From: an uncultured Ferrovum sp.
GTDB lineage: Bacteria; Pseudomonadota; Gammaproteobacteria; Burkholderiales; Ferrovaceae
Assembly (NCBI GenBank): GCA_903909215.1
Contig: CAIVUX010000011.1
Coordinates: forward strand, 1-44,895
Direction of reading: 5' to 3'
DNA length: 44,895 nt
Shown: positions 5,307 to 42,508 of the stretch, piece after piece
How positions within the stretch are numbered: the first letter of the stretch is position 1
Layout of the letters: each line of letters begins with the position of its first letter
The notes under the pieces: model-generated
The model's database searches: none
What the model saw: only the letters and a program-made list of their open reading frames with translations
What the model was told of the DNA's origin: nothing
Position numbers and translations under genes: made by a program

Positions 5307-7448
5307 TTAAACCTTAGTAAAATGGGCTTCGGATAATGGCAAACGCGTAACCCGCTGACCGGTGAGAGCAAAGAGTGCGTTGCACAGCGCTGGCGCAATG
5401 GGCGGGGTGCCGGGCTCGCCTACACCGCCAGGGCCTTCATGGGAGGCAATGGTGTAGACCTCCACTTTTGGCGTTTCACTTAAAGCCACCATGGGGTAAT
5501 CATGAAAATTGCTTTGTTGAACCACGCCCTCTTTAAAGGTGATCTGACCACGCAATGCCGCAGATAGCCCATATAACATAGCCCCTTCTAGTTGAGCGGC
5601 CACCGTGTCGGGATTGACTACTGTGCCCACATCTGCAGCGATCACCACCCGATGTACTTTGGGCTGCCCGTCTTGCAAGGACACTTCTGCCACTTCAGCC
5701 ACAATACTGCCAAAAGATTCTACCAACGCAATGCCGCGTGCCATGCCTTGTGGTAATGGTTTTCCCCAACCCGCCTTCTCTGCAGCCAACTCCAATACCG
5801 CACGGTGCCGGGGTGCCTTACCCAGCATGGCACGACGATATTCAAAAGGATCGCGACCGGCTGCTGCGGCCAGTTCATCAATGAAGCTTTCAGAAAAGAA
5901 TGAGTTTTGTGTGTGGCCCACGGAGCGCCAAAACCAAACCCGTACACCAGGCTGAAATTTTACCCAATCCACTTTAAAATTAGGAATGGCATAGGGAATA
6001 TCGGAGAGCCCCTCTACTGAAGTATTGTCTACTCCCTCCTTGATTAAAGCAGGCTCAAACCCAGTTCCTTCTGCAATAGAATCCGCCACTGTGCAGGCCT
6101 TCCAGGACACCACATTGCCGCTCGCATCAAGACCTGCTTCCAACGAACACACGGCCATGGGACGGTAATAATAGGCACGCAAATCATCGGTGCGGGTATA
6201 CATCACTTTAACTGGCAACTTCACTGCTTTTGAGAGCGTAACCGCCTCAACCACAAAGTCAGGGGCAAAACGCCGACCAAAACCGCCGCCTAAAAATTGC
6301 GTATGAACTTTTACTTTTTCTATGGGGACGCCGGTAATTTTTGACGCAATCATCTGATGGGGGCCTTGCGCTTGCGTGCCTACCCACAATTCCACCGCAT
6401 CCTCTTGTACCCAGGCGGTACAATTCATGGGTTCCATGGGTGCATGTGCCAAATAAGGAACATCGTAGGTGGAACGCACCGTACGTACAATGGCGGGACT
6501 GGTGGGGTCTGATTTTTGACGAGCAGTAATAGCCCCAGCGCCACTTAAAGACAACGCTGTCATTTTTTCTTTTAACGCAGGAGTGGACAAGGATGCATTG
6601 GTCCCATTATCCCACTCAACCTCTAGCAGGTCGCAACCTTTCATGGCCTGCCATGTGTTATCAGCCAATACCGCAACACCCATGCTGGTGGGGCTATCCA
6701 CGGGAACTACAAAGCGCACTCCTTTTATTTTGAGAGCGGCGGCTGCATTAAATTTAACGCGTTTGGCGCCCACCACCGGCGCACGAACCACCACCGCAGT
6801 CAGCATTCCCGGCATGCGCATATCCAAACCATACTGAGCCTTACCTATTGCTTTATCTAGGCTGTCCACTCGTGGGTGCGTCTTACCAATAATCTGAAAG
6901 TCTTTGGGGTCTTTTAAGGGGACATCTTTGGGCACGGGCAATTGAGCCGCTGCATTGGCCATATCACCATAACGCGCGCGATGCACGCCAGCGCTTAACA
7001 CACCTTGATGGGTATTTACATCGTTAATAGACACCCCCCAAGCATTGGCAGCGGCTTGACGCAACATTTGTCGAGCGGTGGCACCGGCTTGACGCAAGGG
7101 CAGCCACATGGCGCGTACCGAGGTAGACCCCCCGGTGGCTTGAGTATGAAACCAAGGGTGGGCATATTCAGGAGCAGCAGGGGCAAATTCCACTCGAATG
7201 CTAGACCAATCTGCATCCAACTCTTCTGCCAGCAACATAGGCAGCGCGGTCATGACCCCTTGGCCCATTTCCGACTTATCCACCAAGATGGTAATCAGGC
7301 CAGAAGACTCCAGGCGCACCCAAGGATTGGGGGCAAATAAGCCCATTTCAGCCGCCAGAGCGCCGCTCTCAAAGAAGCCTAATGCAAAACCACCTCCTGC
7401 CAGGGCAACTACTTTCAAGAAATCCCGGCGATCTATGACTTGGGTCAT
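5307..7448 (-). CDS. Molybdopterin-binding dehydrogenase large subunit, IorB-like
   Basis: From ATG at 7446-7448 (GGAGAG about 8 bases upstream) the protein has 713 residues. It starts with a twin-arginine signal, DRRDFLK at residues 6-12 followed by a hydrophobic stretch, so it should be exported folded with its cofactor. The rest matches the xanthine-dehydrogenase-superfamily catalytic subunit of the isoquinoline 1-oxidoreductase/aldehyde dehydrogenase type: GQGVMTALPMLLAEELD, ATGGSTS, LGGGFGRRF, and the C-terminal GEPGTPPIAPALCNALFALTGQRV that carries the catalytic Glu region. Known relatives hydroxylate N-heterocycles or oxidise aldehydes and pass electrons to a separate [2Fe-2S] subunit. 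That small subunit is absent on either side. The frame is open for 78 more codons upstream, but these cross a palindromic repeat and look non-coding. The substrate is unknown. Confidence 0.85.
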   Translation of the reverse strand: MTQVIDRRDFLKVVALAGGGFALGFFESGALAAEMGLFAPNPWVRLESSGLITILVDKSEMGQGVMTALPMLLAEELDADWSSIRVEFAPAAPEYAHPWFHTQATGGSTSVRAMWLPLRQAGATARQMLRQAAANAWGVSINDVNTHQGVLSAGVHRARYGDMANAAAQLPVPKDVPLKDPKDFQIIGKTHPRVDSLDKAIGKAQYGLDMRMPGMLTAVVVRAPVVGAKRVKFNAAAALKIKGVRFVVPVDSPTSMGVAVLADNTWQAMKGCDLLEVEWDNGTNASLSTPALKEKMTALSLSGAGAITARQKSDPTSPAIVRTVRSTYDVPYLAHAPMEPMNCTAWVQEDAVELWVGTQAQGPHQMIASKITGVPIEKVKVHTQFLGGGFGRRFAPDFVVEAVTLSKAVKLPVKVMYTRTDDLRAYYYRPMAVCSLEAGLDASGNVVSWKACTVADSIAEGTGFEPALIKEGVDNTSVEGLSDIPYAIPNFKVDWVKFQPGVRVWFWRSVGHTQNSFFSESFIDELAAAAGRDPFEYRRAMLGKAPRHRAVLELAAEKAGWGKPLPQGMARGIALVESFGSIVAEVAEVSLQDGQPKVHRVVIAADVGTVVNPDTVAAQLEGAMLYGLSAALRGQITFKEGVVQQSNFHDYPMVALSETPKVEVYTIASHEGPGGVGEPGTPPIAPALCNALFALTGQRVTRLPLSEAHFTKV

Positions 7449-7518: not shown

Positions 7519-7545
7519 GGGGTCAGACCCCATTCGGGGTCTGAC
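7519..7545. repeat. GGGGTCAGACCCC palindrome, copy 1
   Basis: GGGGTCAGACCCC, loop ATTC, then GGGGTCTGAC. It lies in the gap between the binding-protein operon and the molybdoenzyme gene. The right arm lacks the last three bases of the full repeat. Same family as the copies near 11067, 13076, 35687 and 40145. Confidence 0.9.
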
Positions 7546-7562
7546 ACGCCCCGCCGTGCCCC

Positions 7563-7611: not shown

Positions 7612-8457
7612 CTAGGGTGAGACGAGCCTAACGTCCCGCTTTTGACAAATGGCGCCAAGCTCGCCCGAGGATACCAGGTCATTCATAGCCGCTTGCAAGC
7701 CGCGCGCAAGCTCTACATTTTCTGTTTTAACAGCCAGCCCAATGGACCAACCCTTACCCGGAATTTGCGGATAAAGGGCTTCATGCAAACGGAAGCGCGC
7801 ATCGCCTGAGGTGCCCGCTTCAATTTGCGATTGCGTGGCCATCACCATGGCGACTTCACTATTGCGTAAAGCCTTCATGAGGTCTTGGGGCGAATCATAT
7901 ATGCGCGTTTGATTAACATACTTACCGCCTTCCACTGAAAGCAGCACCATGGCGCTAAGTGATATTTTTTCCACACCCATACGTGCATCGGCCAATGAAT
8001 CAGGGCTGGTAAAATCTGGAAACTTTTCACTGTTGTAACCAAACATAATGCGTTCATGAAAATACGGCGCGAAGATTTTCACTTGCGACACTTTATTAAT
8101 CAGTCCTTGCTCAACGGGCACATGCATCATGACATCGGCTGGACCGTAACCTAAGTAATAACCCTTCCACACCATATTGCGTAAATCTTCTTCCATGTCG
8201 TCTTTGGCATCAAAGGGAAGAAACTCCACTTTAAGCCCCAAACGCTTGGCTAAGGCTTCGCCGATATCCGCATCCAGCCCGGCACTTTTTAATGACCAGG
8301 GCCAAAAGTCGTTATAAACCGCTACCTTTAAAGTTCCCGTTTTTCGAATGTCTTCTAAGTCTGCATGGGCCAGCGTGACACCCAACAACACACCACAAAC
8401 ACATTTAAGAAAAAAATGGATACCCGATAATAGCCGCACACCAACAGAGCCGATCAT
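7612..8457 (-). CDS. Quinoprotein-associated periplasmic binding protein (MxaJ/XoxJ-like)
   Basis: The 281-residue protein has a signal peptide (hydrophobic core around 13-30, likely cut after LAHA) and the bacterial solute-binding family 3 fold, shown by GTLKVAVYNDFWPWSL, GLDADIGEALAKRLGLKVEFLPF and the late GWSIGLAVKTENVELARGLQAAMNDL. The pattern is that of binding proteins encoded with PQQ dehydrogenases (MxaJ, XoxJ and relatives), not of an amino-acid transporter. No permease or ATPase gene is near, which supports this. MxaJ/XoxJ are thought to help the dehydrogenase mature or bind its partner. The ATG at 8455-8457 overlaps the cytochrome stop by four bases (ATGA), so the two proteins are made together. 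The role is inferred from family and context. Confidence 0.75.
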   Translation of the reverse strand: MIGSVGVRLLSGIHFFLKCVCGVLLGVTLAHADLEDIRKTGTLKVAVYNDFWPWSLKSAGLDADIGEALAKRLGLKVEFLPFDAKDDMEEDLRNMVWKGYYLGYGPADVMMHVPVEQGLINKVSQVKIFAPYFHERIMFGYNSEKFPDFTSPDSLADARMGVEKISLSAMVLLSVEGGKYVNQTRIYDSPQDLMKALRNSEVAMVMATQSQIEAGTSGDARFRLHEALYPQIPGKGWSIGLAVKTENVELARGLQAAMNDLVSSGELGAICQKRDVRLVSP

Positions 8458-8927
8458 TCTGTAACCCGGCGTGATTCAAGGTAGGTCTTGATGGCCCAGA
8501 TGGCCTCTTGGCTAAAGAATCCTTGAAATGGTGGCATATACACATTGCCGTTACGCACCTTTCCGTGCAGTACGGAAACCATGAAATACTGGTTATGATC
8601 ATCAAAGCAACCTTGTTTTTTGGCAACATCGATCAAACTCATGCAGTCCATATCAAGCTTGCGCAGATCAGGGGCAATGCCTCCTGATATGGCTTCCAAG
8701 CCATGGCAACGCGCACAATTTTGGTTAAAGGCAGAGGTGCCGATTTCCAGCGCAAGGGCATTGCCGCTATAAGGGTTGCTGGATAGGGTCTCTGTTCCCA
8801 AAGACGGAAGTCCCGTGGTATCCACGCTTTGCGGGGTTACGTCACCATGGGCCAACGCTTCCAATGAGGTCACTGGCCCCCATAAGATTAGAACTAGTAA
8901 AAACAAAACAGAACGAATAGAACGCAT
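8454..8927 (-). CDS. pedF: Cytochrome c-550, PedF type
   Basis: ATG at 8925-8927 with GAGGAG about 8 bases upstream gives 157 residues. A longer in-frame reading to 9089 exists, but it has no signal peptide at its start and crosses the promoter. The protein has a signal peptide cut near ALA|HGDV (26/27), one haem site CARCH (71-75) and a likely axial Met in YMPPF (131). The mature start HGDVTPQSVDT and the blocks NCARCHGLEAISGGIAPDLR and RNGNVYMPPF are characteristic of the c-550 that accepts electrons from PQQ alcohol dehydrogenases in the periplasm (PedF of Pseudomonas putida). It is first in a two-gene operon with the binding protein and has its own sigma-54 promoter. Confidence 0.85.
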   Translation of the reverse strand: MRSIRSVLFLLVLILWGPVTSLEALAHGDVTPQSVDTTGLPSLGTETLSSNPYSGNALALEIGTSAFNQNCARCHGLEAISGGIAPDLRKLDMDCMSLIDVAKKQGCFDDHNQYFMVSVLHGKVRNGNVYMPPFQGFFSQEAIWAIKTYLESRRVTE

Positions 8928-8970
8928 GAAAAGACTCCTCTTCATTATTTTTATCATACAGAGGTGTTTA

Positions 8971-8986
8971 TGCAAGTCCTGTGCCA
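8971..8986 (-). promoter_or_regulatory. Sigma-54 promoter of pedF
   Basis: The minus strand reads TGGCACAGGACTTGCA, a perfect TGGCAC-N5-TTGCA -24/-12 element. The -12 GC is about 47 bases before the pedF ATG, which places the transcript start near 8959 and leaves a leader of some 30 bases carrying the GAGGAG ribosome site. The adjacent divergent gene is a sigma-54 activator, which is what such a promoter needs. Confidence 0.88.
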
Positions 8987-9057
8987 TAAAGATATTTATA
9001 ATATACAATTGGTTATAAATATCACCATCAGCAGCTGTTCCGTAATCCAACAAAGGC

Positions 9058-9076
9058 GTGACAGTTGTGACAGTTG
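9058..9076. promoter_or_regulatory. Tandem repeat, candidate activator binding site
   Basis: The plus strand carries GTGACAGTT twice in direct succession (9058-9066 and 9067-9075), then G. It lies 72-90 bases upstream of the pedF sigma-54 element, where enhancer-binding proteins usually sit, and 94 bases before the activator gene itself. A related GTGACGCTTG occurs on the minus strand at 13057-13066, about 100 bases upstream of the dehydrogenase sigma-54 element. The function is inferred. Confidence 0.4.
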
Positions 9077-9169
9077 CGCGTACGATCATTCACATACAAA
9101 AAAGCGTTGAAATACAACAGACGCGTCGGAGGTATGCTCTTTTAGGGCCTGCCCCAACCGGGAGGCATT

Positions 9170-11062
9170 ATGGATCAATTGTCACGAGAAGACGTTATTC
9201 GGCAATCGCATTTGCGTTCTGAGTCTTACGGATTATCAGAACGTTATGCTCCTGAATTTGATCGCATCAACCGCGGCGAGATGCAAGACCTGGTGGATCA
9301 AAACCGGGTGTTACATCTTCATGCTCTGCCCATCATGACCACCCTCTACGAACAAATCATTAATACGCATAGCATGGTATTGCTCACTGATTGCACGGGT
9401 GTGATTGTGTATTCCATTGGCGATCAAGATGTCAGTGAGAAGGCAGCGCAAGTGGCCTTGGCGCCCGGTGTGCAATGGTCTGAACAAAGCAAAGGGACTA
9501 ACGCCATCGGTACGGCAATTGCGGAAGAACGGCCCACCCGGGTTCACGGTGACGAACACTTCTTACTGGCCAATAAATTTCTAACCTGCTCCGCCTCCCC
9601 TATCCTCGATCCTGACGGTAAAGTCATGGGCGTTTTGGACGTCACTGGTGATCAGCGCAACTTCCATGGACATACCATGGCCTTGGTACGGCTGTCGGCA
9701 GAGATGATTGAAAACCAAATTTTTCGCTCCACGGCACGGGAACATGCCTTTGCCTTGTACTTTCATTGCCGACCTGAATTTATTAATACCATGATGGAAG
9801 GCATTGTCTCATTCGATCCCAACGGACATGTGCGCTCTGCCAATCGCCAAGCTCTTTCCTTGTTAGGCGTAACCCTAGCAGGCATGCGTGCGCATAGCTT
9901 TGGTTCACTTTTTGGTTTGCCGCTTTCAGCGTTTTACGATCACTATCGCATGGCCAGCCCGCAATTGATGATGCTAAACCTCAACAATGGGCTACAGGTA
10001 TTTGCACAAGGAAAAATTAACGCCAACAACCGCGCCTTCTCGTTAGGGGATACACGCGTATCCCCTCCGGCACCACAACCCTCCGCTGCTGCCAAGCTCG
10101 TCTCTTCTCATGGCCCCTGGGCTCATTTGGACCAACTGGATACGGGCCATGAGCAAATGCGCGAAAACATAAACAAGATTCGCAAGGTGATTGATCGTGA
10201 TGTTCCCATTCTTGTTTTGGGTGAAACCGGCACCGGTAAAGAAATTTTGGCGCGCGCCATACATAACGATTCCCTGCGCAAAAACAGCCCATTTATCGCT
10301 GTGAATTGCGCCTCTATTCCAGAAAACCTCATTGAGTCTGAATTGTTTGGCTATGAAGATGGCGCCTTTACGGGGGCACGCAAAAAAGGCAGCATGGGTA
10401 AATTTCTGCAAGCCAATGGCGGTACTATTTTCTTAGATGAAATTGGTGACATGCCCTTAAGTCTGCAAGCACGCTTGTTACGTGTATTACAAGAGCGCGC
10501 GGTTAACCCCTTGGGCAGCAGCAAAACATTCCCGGTAAATGTAATGGTGATATGCGCCACCCACCAAAACTTACGTGAACGTATTGAAAACAAAACATTT
10601 CGAGAAGATCTCTACTATCGCTTGAATGGCCTGATTATTAAACTGCCCGCCTTGCGTGAACGCACAGATCTAGAGATTATTGTGCGTAAAATCCTACAAG
10701 TAGAGAGCAACGGTCAAAACCATCGACTCTCTGCTGACGTGTTGAAGCTTTTCACAAATTACCATTGGCCAGGCAATATTCGCCAATTGTCTAACGTCTT
10801 GCGCACCACGGTTATTATGGCCGACGCCGACGGCCTGATTGCTCGTGACCATTTGCCGACAGATTTTTTAGAAGAAGTCATGACCGTTAAAACCCCCACA
10901 CCGTCTTCTGCTATAGCCATTGGTGAATCGCGTTTACACCGTATCGAGGCGGAAGTCATTCGACAAGTAATCGATAGTCACGCCGGTAATGTTTCAGCAG
11001 CTGCTCGACAACTGGGCATTTCGCGCAACACCATCTATCGCAAGCTTGGTTTATCCTCATAA
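9170..11062 (+). CDS. AcoR-type sigma-54-dependent activator
   Basis: This 630-residue enhancer-binding protein starts at ATG 9170 with GGAGG five bases upstream. The N-terminal third holds a GAF sensor (about 55-190: [33 protein letters not shown]) typical of the AcoR group, followed by a PAS-like segment (about 205-260). The AAA+ domain has Walker A GETGTGKE (351-358), the sigma-54 contact loop GAFTGA (398-403) and Walker [11 protein letters not shown] (418-427). The end is a Fis-type helix-turn-helix, [22 protein letters not shown]. AcoR relatives answer to small alcohols, aldehydes or acetoin. It lies between two units with perfect sigma-54 promoters, so it almost certainly controls them. 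The ligand is unknown. Confidence 0.92.
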
Positions 11063-11096
11063 AAAAAGGGTCAGACCCCGTATGGGGTCTGACCCT
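11060..11096 (-). terminator. Palindrome copy 2, terminator of the dehydrogenase gene
   Basis: AGGGTCAGACCCC (11067-11079), loop GTAT, GGGGTCTGACCCT (11084-11096): a perfect 13-base stem. On the minus strand it is followed directly by a run of T (11060-11067), so it ends the dehydrogenase transcript 22 bases past its stop. The T run lies in the stop codon region of the convergent activator gene. This repeat copy has evidently been turned into a terminator. Confidence 0.8.
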
Positions 11097-11117: not shown

Positions 11118-12863
11118 TTACTTAGTGAGTTTAAACACCCATACTGAACCACCTTGTTCCAGGAAGCTCACTTTCTTGGCTACGTCGCCGCCCCAGAGAG
11201 GCACTGCACCACCCCAACCAGATACTACGGCTACATATTGCGTTGTACCATCGGACCAGGTAATGGGAGGCGCCACAATGCCAGAGCCTGTTTGATATTT
11301 CCAGAGCTCTTTGCCGGTGCTGGCATCCATGGCTTTCAGGTAACCCTCAGGAGTGCCGTAGAACACCAGGCCGCCACCTGTGGTGAGAACGCCACCCCAG
11401 AGCGGTGCATTGTTTTTAACTTCCCACACAATCTTGCCGGTCTTGGGGTTAATGGCACGTAAGGCCCCAATGTAATCATCGTTAACTGTTTTAATGGTAA
11501 AACCAGCGCCTAAGTACGCACCGCCTTTCTTATAGGCAACAGGTTCGTTCCAAATTTCCATGCCCCATTCGTTCGCAGGAACGTAGAACAGCCCAGTTCC
11601 TGGATTGTAGGCCATAGGCATTTGGTTTTTACCGCCCAAGAACGAAGGCACTGCGAAAACCACAGTTCCCTTTTTACCATCAGCAGAAGCCGCTGGATTG
11701 CCTGGACGAACTGCATCGTCATACACCGGACGACCAGTGGTCAAATCAATGCTCTTGGCCCAAGTAATTTTCTTAACGAATGGGAAAGCATTAATCAGCT
11801 TACCGGTTTTGGCATCGTTCACATAGAAGAAGCCATTACGATCCGCCTTACCGCCAACACGTTTGCCATCCATATCAAAGGTAACGAACTCATTCGCACC
11901 ATCGTAATCCCAGGCATCATTAGGCGTGTTTTGATAGGACCAAACGATTTTGCCAGTGGTGACATCCAAGGCCACTGTGGAGCAAGAATAGAGATTATCT
12001 CCTGGACGCATATGGCTATTCCATGGAGCGGGGTTACCCGTACCGAAATAGGCTAAACCCGTCTTAGGATCGAAGGTGCCGCCCAACCATGTTGAGGCAC
12101 CGCCTGTTTTCCAAAGCTCACCAGGCCATGATGCATTGGTGGTACCGCTAATACCGTTTTCTGTTTTGTTACCATCTTTGTCAAAGGTGTAACCCATGTG
12201 ACCTTCAACGGTAGGGCGAACCCAAACCAGTTTTCCAGTACGCGGATCACGGGCTTCTACACGACCCACGATGCCAAACTCGCCACCGGATACACCGGTG
12301 AGCAACAGGCCTTTGGCAATCAATGGAGCGGCAGATGAAGAGAACCCTGCAGAATATTCATCAATCTTTTCTTTCCAGACCACTTTACCGGTGTCTTGAT
12401 CTAAAGCCACCAGTTGAGCATCGAGCGTTCCAAAAATAACCAAGTTGTCATACAGGGCGGCGCCGCGATTAACCACATCGCAGCAAGGCATAATGCCTTC
12501 TGGGAGGCGATGCTCATACTTCCACAGCTTAGCACCTGTCTTTACATCAATGGCATAAATGCGCGAATACGAAGCAGTCACAAACATTTTACCGTCATGT
12601 ACCAATGGTTGCGATTCTTGACCACGTTGCTTTTCACCACCAAAGGACATAGTCCAGGCAGGAACAAGCTTAGAAACATTTTGTGCGTTAATGGCTTTGA
12701 GCGGACTAAATCGTTCGCCCTCGGAACCCAATCCGTTGCTAAGCACTTCATGGGTATTGCTGGAGGCTTTCTCCAACATTTGATCCGTGACGGCGGTGGC
12801 GGAAGCCCCCAACGGCACGAGCAGTGCGCTCGCAACGAGCGCAAGGCATAGATTTTTCTTCAT
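11118..12863 (-). CDS. PQQ alcohol dehydrogenase with lanthanide signature
   Basis: The 581-residue protein has a signal peptide (cut near ASA|TAV, 22/23) and the eight-bladed propeller of methanol/ethanol quinoprotein dehydrogenases, with repeated tryptophan-docking motifs such as [11 protein letters not shown] and [11 protein letters not shown]. The vicinal cysteines that clamp PQQ are C127-C128. Metal ligands appear as E195, N277 and the catalytic D319. Two residues on, D321 (WDYDG, 318-322) supplies the extra carboxylate that marks lanthanide-dependent enzymes; calcium types have Ala or Ser there. The overall sequence is closer to the ExaF/PedH ethanol-type group than to classical XoxF. 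It oxidises alcohols in the periplasm, handing electrons to a cytochrome such as PedF. ATG at 12861-12863 has GGGGAG upstream, and the gene stands alone behind a sigma-54 promoter. PQQ synthesis genes are not in the window. Confidence 0.93.
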
Positions 12864-12940: not shown

Positions 12941-12956
12941 AGCAAATGCCGTGCCA
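12941..12956 (-). promoter_or_regulatory. Sigma-54 promoter of the PQQ dehydrogenase
   Basis: The minus strand reads TGGCACGGCATTTGCT, a perfect TGGCAC-N5-TTGCT element. The predicted start is near 12930, leaving a leader of about 65 bases before the ATG at 12863. Together with the matching element before pedF it ties both units to the AcoR-type activator between them. Confidence 0.88.
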
Positions 12957-13075: not shown

Positions 13076-13105
13076 GGGGTCAGACCCCGCATGGGGTCTG
13101 ACCCC
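13076..13105. repeat. GGGGTCAGACCCC palindrome, copy 3
   Basis: GGGGTCAGACCCC, loop GCAT, GGGGTCTGACCCC: a perfect 13-base stem. It lies 24 bases past the stop of the 3-hydroxyisobutyrate dehydrogenase-like gene and upstream of the PQQ dehydrogenase promoter. No T run follows on either strand, so a terminator role is less clear here than at copies 2 and 4. Confidence 0.92.
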
Positions 13106-14595: not shown

Positions 14596-15134
14596 TTGCA
14601 CTTACCAGAAAAACGCATGCGATCGAGCAGGTTATCTTTATCCATAAACTGATGCTTTAGGGTGGCGGCCACGTGCATAATCACCAAACCCAGTAAAGCC
14701 CAATTAAGAGATTCGTGCACCTCTTTAAATAAATCAGAAAGCTCTTTATTTTTATCTATTAAATTGGGTAAGGGAATAAAATTAAGATACACCACGCTGA
14801 CACCCGCTGCTGAGCTGTGCAGCCATCCTGTAATCGGGATGGTCACCATCAGCAGGTACAGGAAAAGATGCGTTACGCCGGAACCCTTCTTCATGTTTTC
14901 GCTCATGGAAGCGGGTAACGCGGGAACGGGATGAGTAAGACGCCAATAGATGCGATACAACACCAAGAGAAAAATGGTGACGCCTGCCCATTTGTGCCAC
15001 GCAAAGATTTTAAGCTTCCAGGGTGAAAGCTCTAAGTCGGCCATATATTGACCCACAGCAAAAGCGACCACAATGAACACTGCTACCAGCCAATGTAATG
15101 CAATGGCGGTGCCATTGTACTTAGTGTTGTTCAT
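14592..15134 (-). CDS. Cytochrome b561 family protein
   Basis: The 180-residue protein has four membrane helices with well-placed histidines: ALHWLVAVFIVVAFAVG in helix 1, FAWHKWAGVTIFLLVLYRIYWR in helix 2, THLFLYLLMVTIPITGWLHSSA in helix 3 and ESLNWALLGLVIMHVAATLKHQF in helix 4. These can hold two b haems. Such proteins pass electrons between quinol and periplasmic partners. Its ATG (15132-15134) overlaps the tatD stop by four bases, and its stop overlaps yceI by four, so the three are translated together. This makes yceI/b561 an extension of the tmk-holB-tatD operon. Confidence 0.93.
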   Translation of the reverse strand: MNNTKYNGTAIALHWLVAVFIVVAFAVGQYMADLELSPWKLKIFAWHKWAGVTIFLLVLYRIYWRLTHPVPALPASMSENMKKGSGVTHLFLYLLMVTIPITGWLHSSAAGVSVVYLNFIPLPNLIDKNKELSDLFKEVHESLNWALLGLVIMHVAATLKHQFMDKDNLLDRMRFSGKCK

Positions 15135-15898
15135 GCACTAACTCCAAATAAATTAAAAAAGTTACGTGATGTTTGTTCGGCCACCTGCGCTAATGGAATG
15201 TCACGCAGCGCGGCAATTTCCTCGGCCACATGTTTTACATAAGCCGGCTGATTGGTCTTGCCACGAAAAGGGGTGGGTGCCAAATAGGGGGAATCCGTTT
15301 CAATGAGCATATGGTCCAGTGGTATTTTTTTAGCTACGCCTTTTATAGCTAAGGCATTTTTAAAGGTGACAATTCCTGAAAATGAAATATAGAAGCCCAT
15401 TTCCATAGCCGCAAAGGCCACTGCCTCTGATTCTGTAAAGCAATGCATAACCCCTCCTACTCTTTCGGCACCTTCTTCTTTCATAATGCGCAGGGTATCT
15501 TCAGCCGCACTGCGAGTGTGAATAATGAGGGGTTTATGAGCGATACGTGCGGCGCGAATATGGGTTCGAAAGCGCTCGCGCTGCCATTCTAGGTCGCCGG
15601 TTAAGCGGTAATAATCCAAACCCGTTTCACCTATTCCCACTACTTTGGAATGGACCGCTAAATTCACCAATTGTTCCACGGTGGGCTCAGGCGTTTCTTC
15701 ATAATCAGGGTGCACGCCCACGGTGGCATACCAACGCTCATGGGTCTGTGCCACTTCTAATACTGCGGCTAAGGTGGGTAATTCCACAGAAATACACAAC
15801 GCATGAGTGACTTGATTTTCATCCATGGCGGCACTGATGGCGTCTAGATTATTTCGCAGCTCCGGAAAATCCAGATGGCAGTGAGAATCCACAAACAT
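15131..15898 (-). CDS. tatD: TatD-family metal-dependent hydrolase
   Basis: ATG at 15896-15898 begins MFVDSHCHLDFPEL, the canonical TatD start with the HxH metal pair (residues 6 and 8); the protein has 255 residues. Other metal sites are seen in GIGETGLDYY, PLIIHTRSA, GGVMHCFTES and IETDSPYLAP. Members are Mg-dependent DNases or phosphoesterases of the cytoplasm. The gene lies two bases after the holB stop, the usual place for this YcfH-type member in proteobacteria. The PilZ gene often found between holB and tatD is missing here. Confidence 0.94.
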   Translation of the reverse strand: MFVDSHCHLDFPELRNNLDAISAAMDENQVTHALCISVELPTLAAVLEVAQTHERWYATVGVHPDYEETPEPTVEQLVNLAVHSKVVGIGETGLDYYRLTGDLEWQRERFRTHIRAARIAHKPLIIHTRSAAEDTLRIMKEEGAERVGGVMHCFTESEAVAFAAMEMGFYISFSGIVTFKNALAIKGVAKKIPLDHMLIETDSPYLAPTPFRGKTNQPAYVKHVAEEIAALRDIPLAQVAEQTSRNFFNLFGVSA

Positions 15899-15900
15899 GA

Positions 15901-16905
15901 TCAATAACTCCCAGCGGCAGCGCGCAATGTCATCCAAGGTGCCAATAGACTCTCAACAAATAAACGTGGGTTAAGGGGATGGTTGACTACACGGCGTGCC
16001 TCACTCAACTGTTTTTCCCATGCCAAAAGGTCATACGCATCTAAGTGCGCCGCTAAGGCAGATTGCTGTTTGGCCAAATCAATGTGAAAACGCGCTTGCC
16101 CCAAATATTTTTGCTCCATGAGATCGTAGCTGAAACGTTGCAGCCAATCCACCAACTGAACCATGGGGATTTTAGTGGCCAATTCGGACAGCCCCACCAA
16201 GGTTATATCTGTGCGTAACAGGGCTGACATAAAAACAGTGCGTGCTGAGGAACCCTCTGCGGCCACGACGCGGGCCTCTAATGGCGCGCCTGCACAAAGC
16301 GCCAAAAAAAGGTCAGGATCCGTTACGCCCTGCGCCACCAACCATTCACGTGCTTCAGTAGGATTGGGCAGGGGCATGGGCTGATGCTGGCAACGACTGC
16401 GCACCGTAGCGGGTAAACGCCGGGGTTGATGACACACCAACAAATATAACGTACCGGGTAGCGGCTCTTCTAGGCTTTTAAGCAGAGCGTTAGCCGCATG
16501 GGTATTGAGCGCGTCGGCAGGATCGATGAGGACGACGCGCAATCCCGCGCGATGCGTACTGGTGGTCATAAAACCAGTCAGCGCACGAATTTGATTGATG
16601 CCAATCTGGGTGGGGGCTTTCTTTTTAGGGCCTTCATCGCCCTCTTCCTCATCATGATCGTCATCGCTTAAGGTGATGGCGCGATAATCAGGGTGATTGC
16701 CCGAATTAAACCAGCCACAGGCCGGACAAGTGCCGCACGCATCACCGCTGGGCTGCGGGGCTTCGCACAATAAAGCGCGCGCCAAATGTCGAGCAAAATC
16801 TGCCTTACCAATACCGCGCCGACCCGATAGCAATAGAGCATGAGGTAATGTGGCACGTTGTGCGGCCAGTTGGGCAAATAGTGCGTGCTGCCAAGAATAC
16901 ATCAT
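15901..16905 (-). CDS. holB: DNA polymerase III delta' subunit
   Basis: The 334-residue protein shows the clamp-loader AAA+ pattern of delta': ALLLSGRRGIGKADFARHLARALLCE (a degenerate P-loop), a zinc module CGTCPACGWFNSGNHPDY, then VVLIDPADALNTHAANALLKSLEEPLPGTLYLLVCHQPRRLPATVRSRCQ, broken here only by its natural length. Delta' is a stator of the loader that places the beta clamp on DNA. An acidic insert (DDDHDEEEGDEGPKKK) follows the zinc module. ATG overlaps the tmk stop by four bases. Order tmk-holB-tatD is conserved in proteobacteria. Confidence 0.95.
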   Translation of the reverse strand: MMYSWQHALFAQLAAQRATLPHALLLSGRRGIGKADFARHLARALLCEAPQPSGDACGTCPACGWFNSGNHPDYRAITLSDDDHDEEEGDEGPKKKAPTQIGINQIRALTGFMTTSTHRAGLRVVLIDPADALNTHAANALLKSLEEPLPGTLYLLVCHQPRRLPATVRSRCQHQPMPLPNPTEAREWLVAQGVTDPDLFLALCAGAPLEARVVAAEGSSARTVFMSALLRTDITLVGLSELATKIPMVQLVDWLQRFSYDLMEQKYLGQARFHIDLAKQQSALAAHLDAYDLLAWEKQLSEARRVVNHPLNPRLFVESLLAPWMTLRAAAGSY

Positions 16906-17519
16906 GAAAAACGCGCCAATAATACTGATTTAATTTCTGCAAAAATAACCTCAGGGGTACGCAATGCATCCAACACATGAAAGCGTTGCGGCTCTGCCTG
17001 CGCGCGCGCTAAGTACGCTTCGCGCACACGCGTAAAGAATTCACCCCGCTCTTGCTCAAAGCGATCTAACACGGGTGAGCCTTGCACGACCCGTTGATGC
17101 GCCGTAGCGGGGTCAAGATCGAATAAAAAAGTGAGGTCTGGTTGTAAGTCGGCCAGTACCCAAAGCTCCAATTGTTGTAAATGTGCCAAGGCTACACCAC
17201 GGCCACCTCCTTGATAGGCGAAACTGGCATCGGCAAAACGATCGCTCAGCACCCAGGCACCGCGCTGCAAGGCGGGCGCGATAACGGTGGTTACATGTTC
17301 ACGACGAGCCGCAAACATCAGCAACGCCTCGCTGTCGGCGTTCATGGGTTGATGTAACACCATTTCACGCAGAGCTTCGCCCAACGCTGTGCCACCTGGT
17401 TCGCGCGTCACCACCAAATCATGCCCCTGCGCCCTAATCCATTGCGCCATAGGGGCGAGGTGCGTGCTTTTGCCAGCACCGTCGATGCCTTCCACTGAAA
17501 TGAACCGAGCTTTATGCAT
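16902..17519 (-). CDS. tmk: Thymidylate kinase
   Basis: Tmk phosphorylates dTMP to dTDP for DNA synthesis. The 205-residue protein starts ISVEGIDGAGKSTH, the family P-loop, followed by VTREPGGTALGEALR (the Arg-containing DRX/REPG element) and DRFADASFAYQGGGRG, the substrate and lid region. Length is typical. It starts 18 bases after mltG and overlaps holB by four bases. The E. coli-type order mltG-tmk-holB is kept. Confidence 0.97.
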   Translation of the reverse strand: MHKARFISVEGIDGAGKSTHLAPMAQWIRAQGHDLVVTREPGGTALGEALREMVLHQPMNADSEALLMFAARREHVTTVIAPALQRGAWVLSDRFADASFAYQGGGRGVALAHLQQLELWVLADLQPDLTFLFDLDPATAHQRVVQGSPVLDRFEQERGEFFTRVREAYLARAQAEPQRFHVLDALRTPEVIFAEIKSVLLARFS

Positions 17520-40051: not shown

Positions 40052-40140
40052 GCCCGGATGGTGAAATTGGTAGACACAAGGGACTTAAAATCCCTCGGCC
40101 CTCATCGGCCATGCCGGTTCAAGTCCGGCTCTGGGCACCA
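40052..40140 (+). tRNA. tRNA-Leu (UAA)
   Basis: The 89 bases fold as a class II tRNA. The acceptor arm GCCCGGA pairs with TCTGGGC, with discriminator A and encoded CCA at 40138-40140. The anticodon stem AGGGA/TCCCT encloses the loop with TAA at 40086-40088, and a long variable arm and a T-arm (GCCGGTTCAAGTCCGGC) follow. It reads UUA/UUG leucine codons. Confidence 0.96.
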
Positions 40141-40144
40141 ATTT

Positions 40145-40174
40145 GGGGTCAGACCCCTCTAGGGGTCTGACCCC
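40145..40174. repeat. GGGGTCAGACCCC palindrome, copy 5
   Basis: GGGGTCAGACCCC, loop TCTA, GGGGTCTGACCCC: perfect 13-base stem, four bases after the tRNA CCA. It is followed by a partial repeat of its own end (TACATCTGACCCCTACATC, to 40193), which suggests local slippage or a broken second copy. It may end the recQ-tRNA transcript, though no T run follows. Confidence 0.92.
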
Positions 40175-40294: not shown

Positions 40295-42508
40295 TTAGAA
40301 TGGTGCTGAAAAATTAACTTGGTAACTGCGGTTAGGTATTACATAAAACAAAGGGTTACCATTTGCATCAGAGTTAATAGAAGTCAGATTTCCTGTTTTA
40401 TCAAATAGGTTGTAAACACCCAAACCCACCTTGTACTTGCCTTCAAACTTATAACTCATATCAAAGTTGGTTATCGCGTAACCGCTTAAACGTAGATTGT
40501 TTCCATTTACATCCACGTTGCTATAAAAGTCACCAATATATTTCGTAACCAGTGATGCGTAAAGATTACCATCTTGGTGAATTAAACCAAACGCCGCGTT
40601 GGTTGTGGGTGCGTTTTGTAAAACTTTTCCACTTGGATCGGAATAATTATTTCTCGCAAAATTTCCATATACTGACAAGCCTTTAAACAACATGTAAGTT
40701 GCTTCAAGTTCAACGCCAGAATAAGTTACAGATGGAAGAACTGTTGCGCAATTGGTGAACCCTGACCCGCCTGGGCATGGTATACCAGTCGCAAGGTTGT
40801 TGGCATCAATGCGATAATAATCAACACCAAAGTTCAGCTTGTTGCTAACCCAATTCGTCCCAATCTGATAATTTTTTGTGGTGGTTGGATTCACTGTGCT
40901 CAAGTCAACGCCACTCTTATAAAACACATTCATGTTGGGCGCCAAGAAACCTTCTGAATACTGTGCGTAGGCAGACAGATTGGGGTTAATGGCATAACGC
41001 GTGTTAAGGGATTTAAGCACCTTGTCCCAAGTCTCGGAACCGGTGTATGGAACTAACGTTTTTTGGTTTACAGCAGCATTCATAGTGCGGGTGAAGGAAT
41101 CATACTTTACACCTGGTGTCACTTCCCAATCGGGGGTAATTTTCCAAACGTATTGTGCATAGCCTTGAATAGAATTAAGGTTGCTAAGCATGCTGCGGTC
41201 CACAGAACCAGGAGCGGTTGTGGAATATACCCCTTTTGTTACGATATTGTTTGGCGCGCCACCCAAGGTCCAATCGATTTGTTGTTCAAAGCGATCATCT
41301 TGCTGACGGTCGGCCCAAAACCCCATCTGCAATTTGTCTTGTCCAAAGTTATAGGTGGCTCTCAGGATGTCGCCGATGGAACGGTAATTATTGTGCATCT
41401 GGGCCCCTGGAACATTGCTTGGACCGTTAGCGGTACCGCCATCATTAATGGTATCTTGCAGCGTAACCGAACCGGTATTGGCGCCATAGAATCCATTGTG
41501 ATAATACGCGTAGGTATATAACTTATTATCCAGCGTCCACTTACCCATGTGACTCTTTAGCCCCACGTACTCAAAGTCGGTGCTTAGGTCATCGTAGTTA
41601 AAACCAGAATTGGATTCGCTTTGGACGTTATTCACTAGACCAAAGTTATAGCCATATTGGGATTGTTGCTGCGGGGTTGAACCATTGGGCACATGTTGCG
41701 TTGTATGGTTGTACATGGCAACGACAGTCAGGACCGTGTTGTCGGTTGCCAGTTTTTCAAACTTATAAAATGCATTATTTCTGGATTGGCCGCTGTTAGT
41801 CAGAAACCCATCAGAGTTTAAGTTCTTTAAGCTGAAATACATGCTCGAATCATTGGCATCTTTGTTGATACCACTGTTGTACTGTGCGCCCAGTAAACGC
41901 GTATTCCAACTACCGTAGGTGCCGAAAATTGTAGTGTCTGCAAGCACTGACGGCGCCTTGGATGATATGGCAATTGTGCCACCGTATGTGGCATCTCCAA
42001 TGGTACTGGCATCACCCGGACCGCGGTCTACAATAATTTGACCCATATCTTGTGGCATGAAATACACTGTTGAGTGATGGGTAAAGTCGTTTGAGTCGCC
42101 CCATGGTATGCCGTCAAAGGTGACATTGTATTGACCGTCTTGAAAGCCACGGATAGTGGGTGTGCCTCCGCCGCCGCCTGACTCCATAAGGCCGGGGCCG
42201 TTGGGCGCCATATCCACTACGCTGGGCGAAATACTAATGATCTCACTGTAGTTAGCGCCTGCGGCAGCATTTTCTTCAATATAGTGTTGCGAAATAATGG
42301 ACTGAGGCTGCGTGGCCACTAGCGAGGTTTGCGTTGGGGCTTGATAAACAGCTGAATTAACATCCACCGTTTTACCTGTGCCGCCCGTTGCTCCCACAGA
42401 ACCCAAGTCCACCGCTTGGTCTGCAAAGACAGGTGCTGCCATTTGAAGAAGTGCTGCAACAACCGCAACGTGCAAGGCACGACGCTTGAAGTGTGTGGTG
42501 GTGTTCAT
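40295..42508 (-). CDS. TonB-dependent outer-membrane receptor
   Basis: The 737-residue protein has a signal peptide (MNTTTHFKRRALHVAVVAALLQMAAPVFA, cut before DQAV), a plug domain (about 70-190, with TPTIRGFQDGQYNVTFDGIPWGD and IIVDRGPGDASTIGDATYGGTIAI) and a long beta-barrel ending in the aromatic F typical of outer-membrane proteins (YQVNFSAPF). Such receptors import large or scarce nutrients with TonB energy. GAGGGG precedes the ATG (42506-42508). The substrate is unknown. A secreted metallophosphatase, TonB and ExbD follow upstream on the same strand, so this is a coherent uptake cluster; phosphorus-linked substrates are one option, a metal chelate another. Confidence 0.9.
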   Translation of the reverse strand: MNTTTHFKRRALHVAVVAALLQMAAPVFADQAVDLGSVGATGGTGKTVDVNSAVYQAPTQTSLVATQPQSIISQHYIEENAAAGANYSEIISISPSVVDMAPNGPGLMESGGGGGTPTIRGFQDGQYNVTFDGIPWGDSNDFTHHSTVYFMPQDMGQIIVDRGPGDASTIGDATYGGTIAISSKAPSVLADTTIFGTYGSWNTRLLGAQYNSGINKDANDSSMYFSLKNLNSDGFLTNSGQSRNNAFYKFEKLATDNTVLTVVAMYNHTTQHVPNGSTPQQQSQYGYNFGLVNNVQSESNSGFNYDDLSTDFEYVGLKSHMGKWTLDNKLYTYAYYHNGFYGANTGSVTLQDTINDGGTANGPSNVPGAQMHNNYRSIGDILRATYNFGQDKLQMGFWADRQQDDRFEQQIDWTLGGAPNNIVTKGVYSTTAPGSVDRSMLSNLNSIQGYAQYVWKITPDWEVTPGVKYDSFTRTMNAAVNQKTLVPYTGSETWDKVLKSLNTRYAINPNLSAYAQYSEGFLAPNMNVFYKSGVDLSTVNPTTTKNYQIGTNWVSNKLNFGVDYYRIDANNLATGIPCPGGSGFTNCATVLPSVTYSGVELEATYMLFKGLSVYGNFARNNYSDPSGKVLQNAPTTNAAFGLIHQDGNLYASLVTKYIGDFYSNVDVNGNNLRLSGYAITNFDMSYKFEGKYKVGLGVYNLFDKTGNLTSINSDANGNPLFYVIPNRSYQVNFSAPF

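Follow-up and report, generated by a model that had tools for sequence, protein, structure and literature searches.

Contig C11 of an uncultured Ferrovum sp. assembly encodes a PQQ-dependent dehydrogenase on its minus strand (11118-12863). The whole contig, 44,895 nucleotides long, was analysed and is called the window here; it belongs to a genome of 1,534,657 bases in 51 contigs, with estimates of 99.85% completeness and 0.37% contamination. An earlier note on this DNA had placed four metal ligands, E195, N277, D319 and an extra D321, in the protein, and had proposed that it carries the lanthanide-type Asp-x-Asp (D-x-D) signature outside the XoxF clade. The locus raises the question of whether this is a lanthanide-dependent enzyme, for which alcohols and under what control, and of where its cofactor comes from.

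Gene product and substrate class

The gene product (581 aa) was identified from its open reading frame, phmmer and profile matches as a PedH-type PQQ alcohol dehydrogenase. It scores 741 bits against TIGR03075 (PQQ-dependent dehydrogenase, methanol/ethanol family), above the curated cut-off of 480. The N-terminus, judged by eye, looks like a signal peptide, and the alignment with PedH 6zcw begins at residue 25. A phmmer comparison with PDB sequences ranked PedH first (804 bits for 6zcw and 799 for 6zcv), followed by ExaA (645) and XoxF SolV (378), with other XoxF and MxaF sequences lower. These scores bear out the closer resemblance to the ExaF/PedH-type ethanol group than to XoxF that had been suggested for the protein. 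An AlphaFold2 model built on an alignment of 63 sequences (pLDDT 86.1, pTM 0.89) was used in place of an earlier one from 12 sequences, in which the active-site loops were poor. PedH is the best match to the predicted fold (Z 59.2; 61% identity, rmsd 1.2 Å across 553 residues), with ExaA (Z 55.4) and XoxF (Z about 50) behind it, and Foldseek returned its matches in the same order.

Residues were compared in a sample of 124 PQQ dehydrogenase sequences from fetched loci (one being the window gene again), four PDB references and the window protein. PedH-like sequences were defined as those with at least 700 bits to the query and ExaA-like sequences as those with 598-654 bits; after removal of one fragment (L011) and merging of identical sequences, the duplicate window gene was excluded from the resulting 106 PedH-like sequences. 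The vicinal pair C127-C128 (codons 12480-12485, minus strand), the disulfide ring residues of quinoprotein alcohol dehydrogenases, is Cys-Cys in all PedH-like and ExaA-like rows, a conservation that is partly by construction since one of the two search patterns behind 80 of the loci contained PCC. F408, which corresponds to pocket residue F412 of PedH, is Phe in the PedH-like and ExaA-like rows, whereas the XoxF and MxaF rows have Ala or Ser there. As judged from these rows, F408 tells ethanol-type from methanol-type enzymes but does not distinguish PedH from ExaA.

Other PQQ dehydrogenases and C1 metabolism

A protein search and a PF01011 search (E 1e-20 or better) agree on four PQQ dehydrogenases in the genome, of which one is encoded in the window. 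All four have D-x-D and frames without inner stops, and the calcium-type motif D-x-A/S/T occurs in none of the four. The absence of a calcium-type partner, originally remarked for the window, holds for this wider search. A XoxF5 on contig C18 (956 bits to 6dam) has its own cytochrome and a MoxJ-type protein. The remaining two, L002 (C5:9015-10604) and L004 (C5:13467-14984), are divergent and lie 2.9 kb apart, each with a c-type cytochrome nearby and Asp at the metal-Glu position. L004 has F and Y in place of the Cys pair and Lys for Arg342, and reaches 433 bits against TIGR03075, below the cut-off of 480. The best plasmid relatives of L002 match at no more than 41%, and those of L004 at 57-59% (Skermanella).

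Fae is encoded twice, which makes formaldehyde oxidation by the methanopterin pathway probable; together with XoxF5, it makes C1 oxidation likely in this organism. Such a metabolism would suit a lanthanide-binding enzyme that serves mainly in methanol or formaldehyde oxidation, or in lanthanide sensing, in place of ethanol-class alcohols, and PedH of Pseudomonas putida is reported to have an additional role in transcriptional regulation (PMC5487730). We consider this improbable, since for methanol there is XoxF5, with a cytochrome and a MoxJ-like protein of its own, F408 is of the ethanol type, and no PedS2/PedR2-like pair was seen among the window proteins scanned, which were part of the window's open reading frames. 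An ethanol-class dehydrogenase is the preferred reading, and the metal that it would use is considered next.

Metal site and phylogenetic placement

The codons of E195 (12279-12281), N277 (12033-12035), the catalytic D319 (11907-11909) and the extra D321 (11901-11903) were confirmed in the minus-strand frame and in homolog alignments. All four residues are invariant in an alignment of 12 homologs that includes the window protein. The same columns read E, N, D, D in PedH 6zcw and in XoxF 4mae and 6dam, with ExaA 1flg showing D-x-S and a MxaF from M. nodulans showing D-x-A; on these matching columns we rejected a chance occurrence of the motif. The four ligands are present in 106/106 other PedH-like proteins, a count that tilts toward one group because 80 of them are close relatives out of one search (the best 80 of 582 confirmed loci). 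Column 321 is Asp in all 106 and Ser in 9/9 ExaA-like sequences, while C127, C128, E195, N277 and D319 are identical across both sets.

A phylogenetic tree was built from 58 of the 129 sequences with motif columns 319-321 removed. It unites the window protein and PedH within an ethanol-dehydrogenase group (support 100/98), with XoxF and MxaF outside, so that the D-x-D motif indeed lies outside the XoxF clade. Membership in XoxF was rejected on this position and on the low phmmer scores. The D-x-S ExaA rows form one 100/100 branch that excludes the window protein, and the calcium-clade position that would have told against lanthanide use did not occur; the D-x-D (PedH) side as a single clade is supported by just 85/63. 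The nearest neighbours of the window protein are two members of its own family, followed by a Burkholderiales bacterium and Noviherbaspirillum. On the tree the motif changes twice, once to Ser (ExaA) and once to Ala (MxaF).

A calcium-dependent ethanol dehydrogenase of the ExaA/PedE type, with the extra Asp incidental, would have the same fold, 53-56% identity to ExaA, and the E, N and catalytic D that both groups hold in common. It is nevertheless very unlikely given the clean split at column 321 (D in 106/106, S in 9/9) and the separate ExaA branch. Moreover, PedH is reported to be active solely with lanthanides and to show no activity in the calcium conditions that served for PedE, which carries Ser at the position matching D321 (PMC5487730). 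The calcium type was rejected because residue 321 is Asp and not Ser. A point against reading the metal from this residue is that a Ser-type enzyme, PedE_M.s., is described as retaining 50-80% activity in 10 mM lanthanides (PMC10409515).

D-x-D alone is no proof of lanthanide use, since the E. coli membrane glucose dehydrogenase (m-GDH) is also reported with D-x-D in a study that classified 6,328 ocean sequences with this motif as marker (PMC11996626). The two D-x-D enzymes on C5, with their changed Glu position, call for the same caution. The same study names ExaF and PedH as lanthanide enzymes outside the methanol dehydrogenases (PQQ-ADH type 2b). D-x-D outside XoxF is thus already described for ExaF and PedH (PMC5487730; PMC11996626), and the window protein belongs to that described class. 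As every PedH-like sequence sampled here holds the motif as well, there is less surprise in it than the heading of the earlier note implied. Taken together, the sequence comparisons indicate that lanthanide dependence, as in PedH and ExaF, is very probable for the window enzyme.

Comparison with known enzymes

The closest characterized likeness is PedH of P. putida KT2440 (6zcw/6zcv), which shares the metal ligands, the vicinal Cys pair and the pocket F/W at 61% identity; the window cluster also includes a PedF cytochrome. The window system differs from it in that the genome search shows no calcium-type partner, the neighbouring regulator is a sigma-54 AAA+ activator and not a PedS2/PedR2 pair, and the owner is a beta-proteobacterium in which no pqq genes were detected. 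ExaF of Methylorubrum extorquens AM1 is likened here by its class name (type 2b; PMC11996626), its sequence being outside our alignment. A plasmid homolog from M. extorquens ATCC 55366 has 62.9% identity to the window PedH and adjoins pedF and a binding-protein gene. ExaA of Pseudomonas aeruginosa (1flg), of the calcium type, shares the fold, the E/N/D ligands, the vicinal Cys pair and the pocket F/W, but has Ser in place of D321, stands on a separate tree branch and is 53-56% identical. The XoxF5 methanol dehydrogenases (6dam, 6oc5) have D-x-D in common with the window protein but belong to another clade (35-40% identity), and the genome carries its own XoxF5 besides the window PedH.

Plasmid pTB101 of Aquabacterium olei carries a D-x-D PedH-type gene (9001-10665) and a D-x-S ExaA-type frame (15292-17238) about 4.6 kb apart, the latter missing from the record's gene table. 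By their predicted types, the two are a natural lanthanide/calcium pair.

Gene neighbourhood and sigma-54 promoters

A gene adjoining pedH, on the plus strand and convergent with it, encodes a sigma-54 enhancer-binding activator (9170-11062) with profile matches to GAF, PAS-like, AAA+ (with GAFTGA) and Fis-type HTH domains. Divergent from the activator gene lies pedF (8454-8930, minus strand), encoding a cytochrome c-550 (TIGR04494, 186 bits; curated cut-off 122) that is the presumed electron acceptor; its open reading frame opens at 9089, and the likely start at 8930 was picked by eye. Downstream of pedF on the same strand are genes for a periplasmic solute-binding protein of a type that accompanies PQQ dehydrogenases (7612-8457; SBP_bac_3) and for a TAT-exported large subunit that binds molybdopterin and belongs to the aldehyde/xanthine oxidoreductase superfamily (5307-7448; profile matches), whose frame opens at 7682 with a likely start at 7448, again picked by eye. 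Between the molybdopterin gene and its neighbours there is no further same-strand open reading frame of at least 80 aa that could be a candidate [2Fe-2S] small subunit.

This arrangement was compared with 80 named related loci (73-81% identity) from Burkholderiales and other beta-proteobacteria, one labelled just 'Proteobacteria'. Many of their flanks end at contig ends, and within the flanks 41 loci have an activator homolog, 40 have pedF and 37 have the binding protein. The activator and pedF are divergent, with starts at most 700 bp apart, in 27 of the 35 loci that have both, and the binding-protein gene follows pedF in 37/37 loci with both. A homolog of the molybdopterin subunit was found in 0/80.

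Exact sigma-54 (-24/-12) promoter sequences precede both pedH and pedF on the minus strand. The first, TGGCACGGCATTTGCT (12941-12956), lies 78 nt 5' of the pedH start codon, and the second, TGGCACAGGACTTGCA (8971-8986), about 41 nt 5' of the likely pedF start. The window contains three exact matches to TGGCAC-N5-TTGCW, where 0.15 would be expected, and 0/100 shuffles reach three. Near-perfect sites, with a score of at least 14 of 15 within 250 bp upstream, were found for 76/105 other pedH genes (71 of them at 75-160 bp) and 36/52 other pedF genes, compared with 0.1% and 0.4%, respectively, in letter-shuffled controls. A stricter pattern was found in 16/106 pedH rows (the window gene included) against 21/2,120 random pieces. 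The activator gene in the window has no near-perfect site (best score 10 of 15), and such a site was found for the activator gene in 13/39 other loci. A sigma-54-controlled operon is recognized here by its -24/-12 motif together with an AAA+ activator with GAFTGA, as a motif match alone, and we take the activator to be the likely driver of pedH and pedF. The third exact match in the window (15099-15114) lies within the beginning of a gene for cytochrome b561, upstream of one from the YceI family.

A precedent for a PQQ alcohol dehydrogenase under sigma-54 control is exaA of Azospirillum brasilense Sp7, which is reported to be sigma-54-dependent with a LuxR-type regulator (Singh 2017, as cited in PMC6115532), whereas the window pedH adjoins a gene for a canonical AAA+ enhancer-binding protein. 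Apart from this citation, sigma-54 activators beside PedH-type genes were absent from the open-licence literature matches listed, which is weak evidence.

A terminator-like palindrome, GGGTCAGACCCC-n4-GGGGTCTGACCC (11068-11095), lies between the convergent activator and pedH genes. With three mismatches allowed, this REP-like element occurs at 7520-7547, 11068-11095, 13077-13104 and 40146-40173, with none expected by chance, and two of the copies stand on either side of pedH. Its half-site was found in 4 of the 144 fetched loci, each from this same genome. A tRNA-Leu (TAA) gene (40052-40140) adjoins the last copy and a TonB-dependent receptor gene.

PQQ biosynthesis and import

Profile searches of the 1.53 Mb assembly did not find pqqB, pqqC, pqqD or pqqE. 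Among the genomes of the family, pqqB occurs in 8/32, which are precisely the eight other family genomes with a PF01011 match. Beyond the owner, 16 genomes match PF01011: pqqC is above cut-off in 15 of these, the single miss being 70% complete; pqqE was searched in 12 of the 16, with 10 above cut-off and two partial or split; and pqqD is present in 7/7 searched. The only pqqE match in the Ferrovum genome scores 52 bits, comparable weak matches occur in all 14 control genomes, and its frame, by eye, reads like MoaA. A sister genus has pqqB, C, D and E (plus, by eye, pqqA) next to pedH; the same place in the window has other genes.

The simplest readings are that the pqq genes were lost and PQQ is imported, or that one locus is absent from the 51-contig assembly; we lean somewhat toward a true loss. 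With the synthesis genes not found, the holo-enzyme would need imported PQQ. Import is reported for many Gram-negatives with PQQ enzymes and described as widespread, biosynthesis genes having been identified in just 23% of PqqU producers (PMC12124388). In the present genome, the PqqU model (cut-off 1200) matched two TonB receptors weakly, at 53 and 26 bits, and the PqqU signature Y99, R304, R365 was not seen in either, in alignments that were rough and poor. The weaker match is the window receptor (40295-42508; 25.6 bits), which was considered as a PqqU or lanthanide receptor and has no PDB relative at E 1e-6. PQQ-auxotrophic lanthanide methylotrophs did not appear among the open-licence literature matches listed, which is weak evidence of absence.

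That the gene is dead, or its product confined to the apo form for want of PQQ synthesis, would fit the missing pqqB, C, D and E in an assembly estimated at 99.85% complete, but is very improbable, as the frame is intact with every ligand and the promoter kept, the four PQQ dehydrogenase frames have no inner stops, and many Gram-negatives with PQQ enzymes import PQQ (PMC12124388).

Proposed function and implications

We conclude, with a probability of about 0.88 for the reading as a whole, that the window gene encodes a PedH/ExaF-type lanthanide alcohol dehydrogenase (PQQ-ADH type 2b) with PedF as acceptor and under sigma-54 control. The product would be a soluble periplasmic enzyme in which a light lanthanide(III) ion, bound by E195, N277, D319 and D321, activates PQQ. 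It would oxidise ethanol along with other small primary alcohols, and probably aldehydes as well, and electrons would pass to the neighbouring cytochrome c-550. The adjacent activator most likely turns on pedH and the pedF operon jointly via the -24/-12 promoters.

The enzyme itself is one more member of a clade known for lanthanide use, in which Asp or Ser at position 321 cleanly separates the lanthanide-type from the calcium-type ethanol dehydrogenases sampled. Its genomic context outweighs it, the leads being four D-x-D quinoproteins, a conserved sigma-54 module and the failure to detect pqq genes. More tentatively, and at somewhat less than even odds, these may describe a genome-reduced, methylotroph-like beta-proteobacterium that has only lanthanide-type quinoproteins, has lost PQQ synthesis, scavenges both lanthanide and PQQ by a non-PqqU route, and has a conserved sigma-54 module for PedH and its cytochrome in place of a calcium/lanthanide switch. 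For PedH-type enzymes of beta-proteobacteria, the conserved sigma-54 sites suggest a control mechanism that can be put to the test. If the absence of the pqq genes is true, the organism would be a natural C1/alcohol oxidiser that obtains both PQQ and lanthanide externally, and a test case for cofactor sharing in communities.
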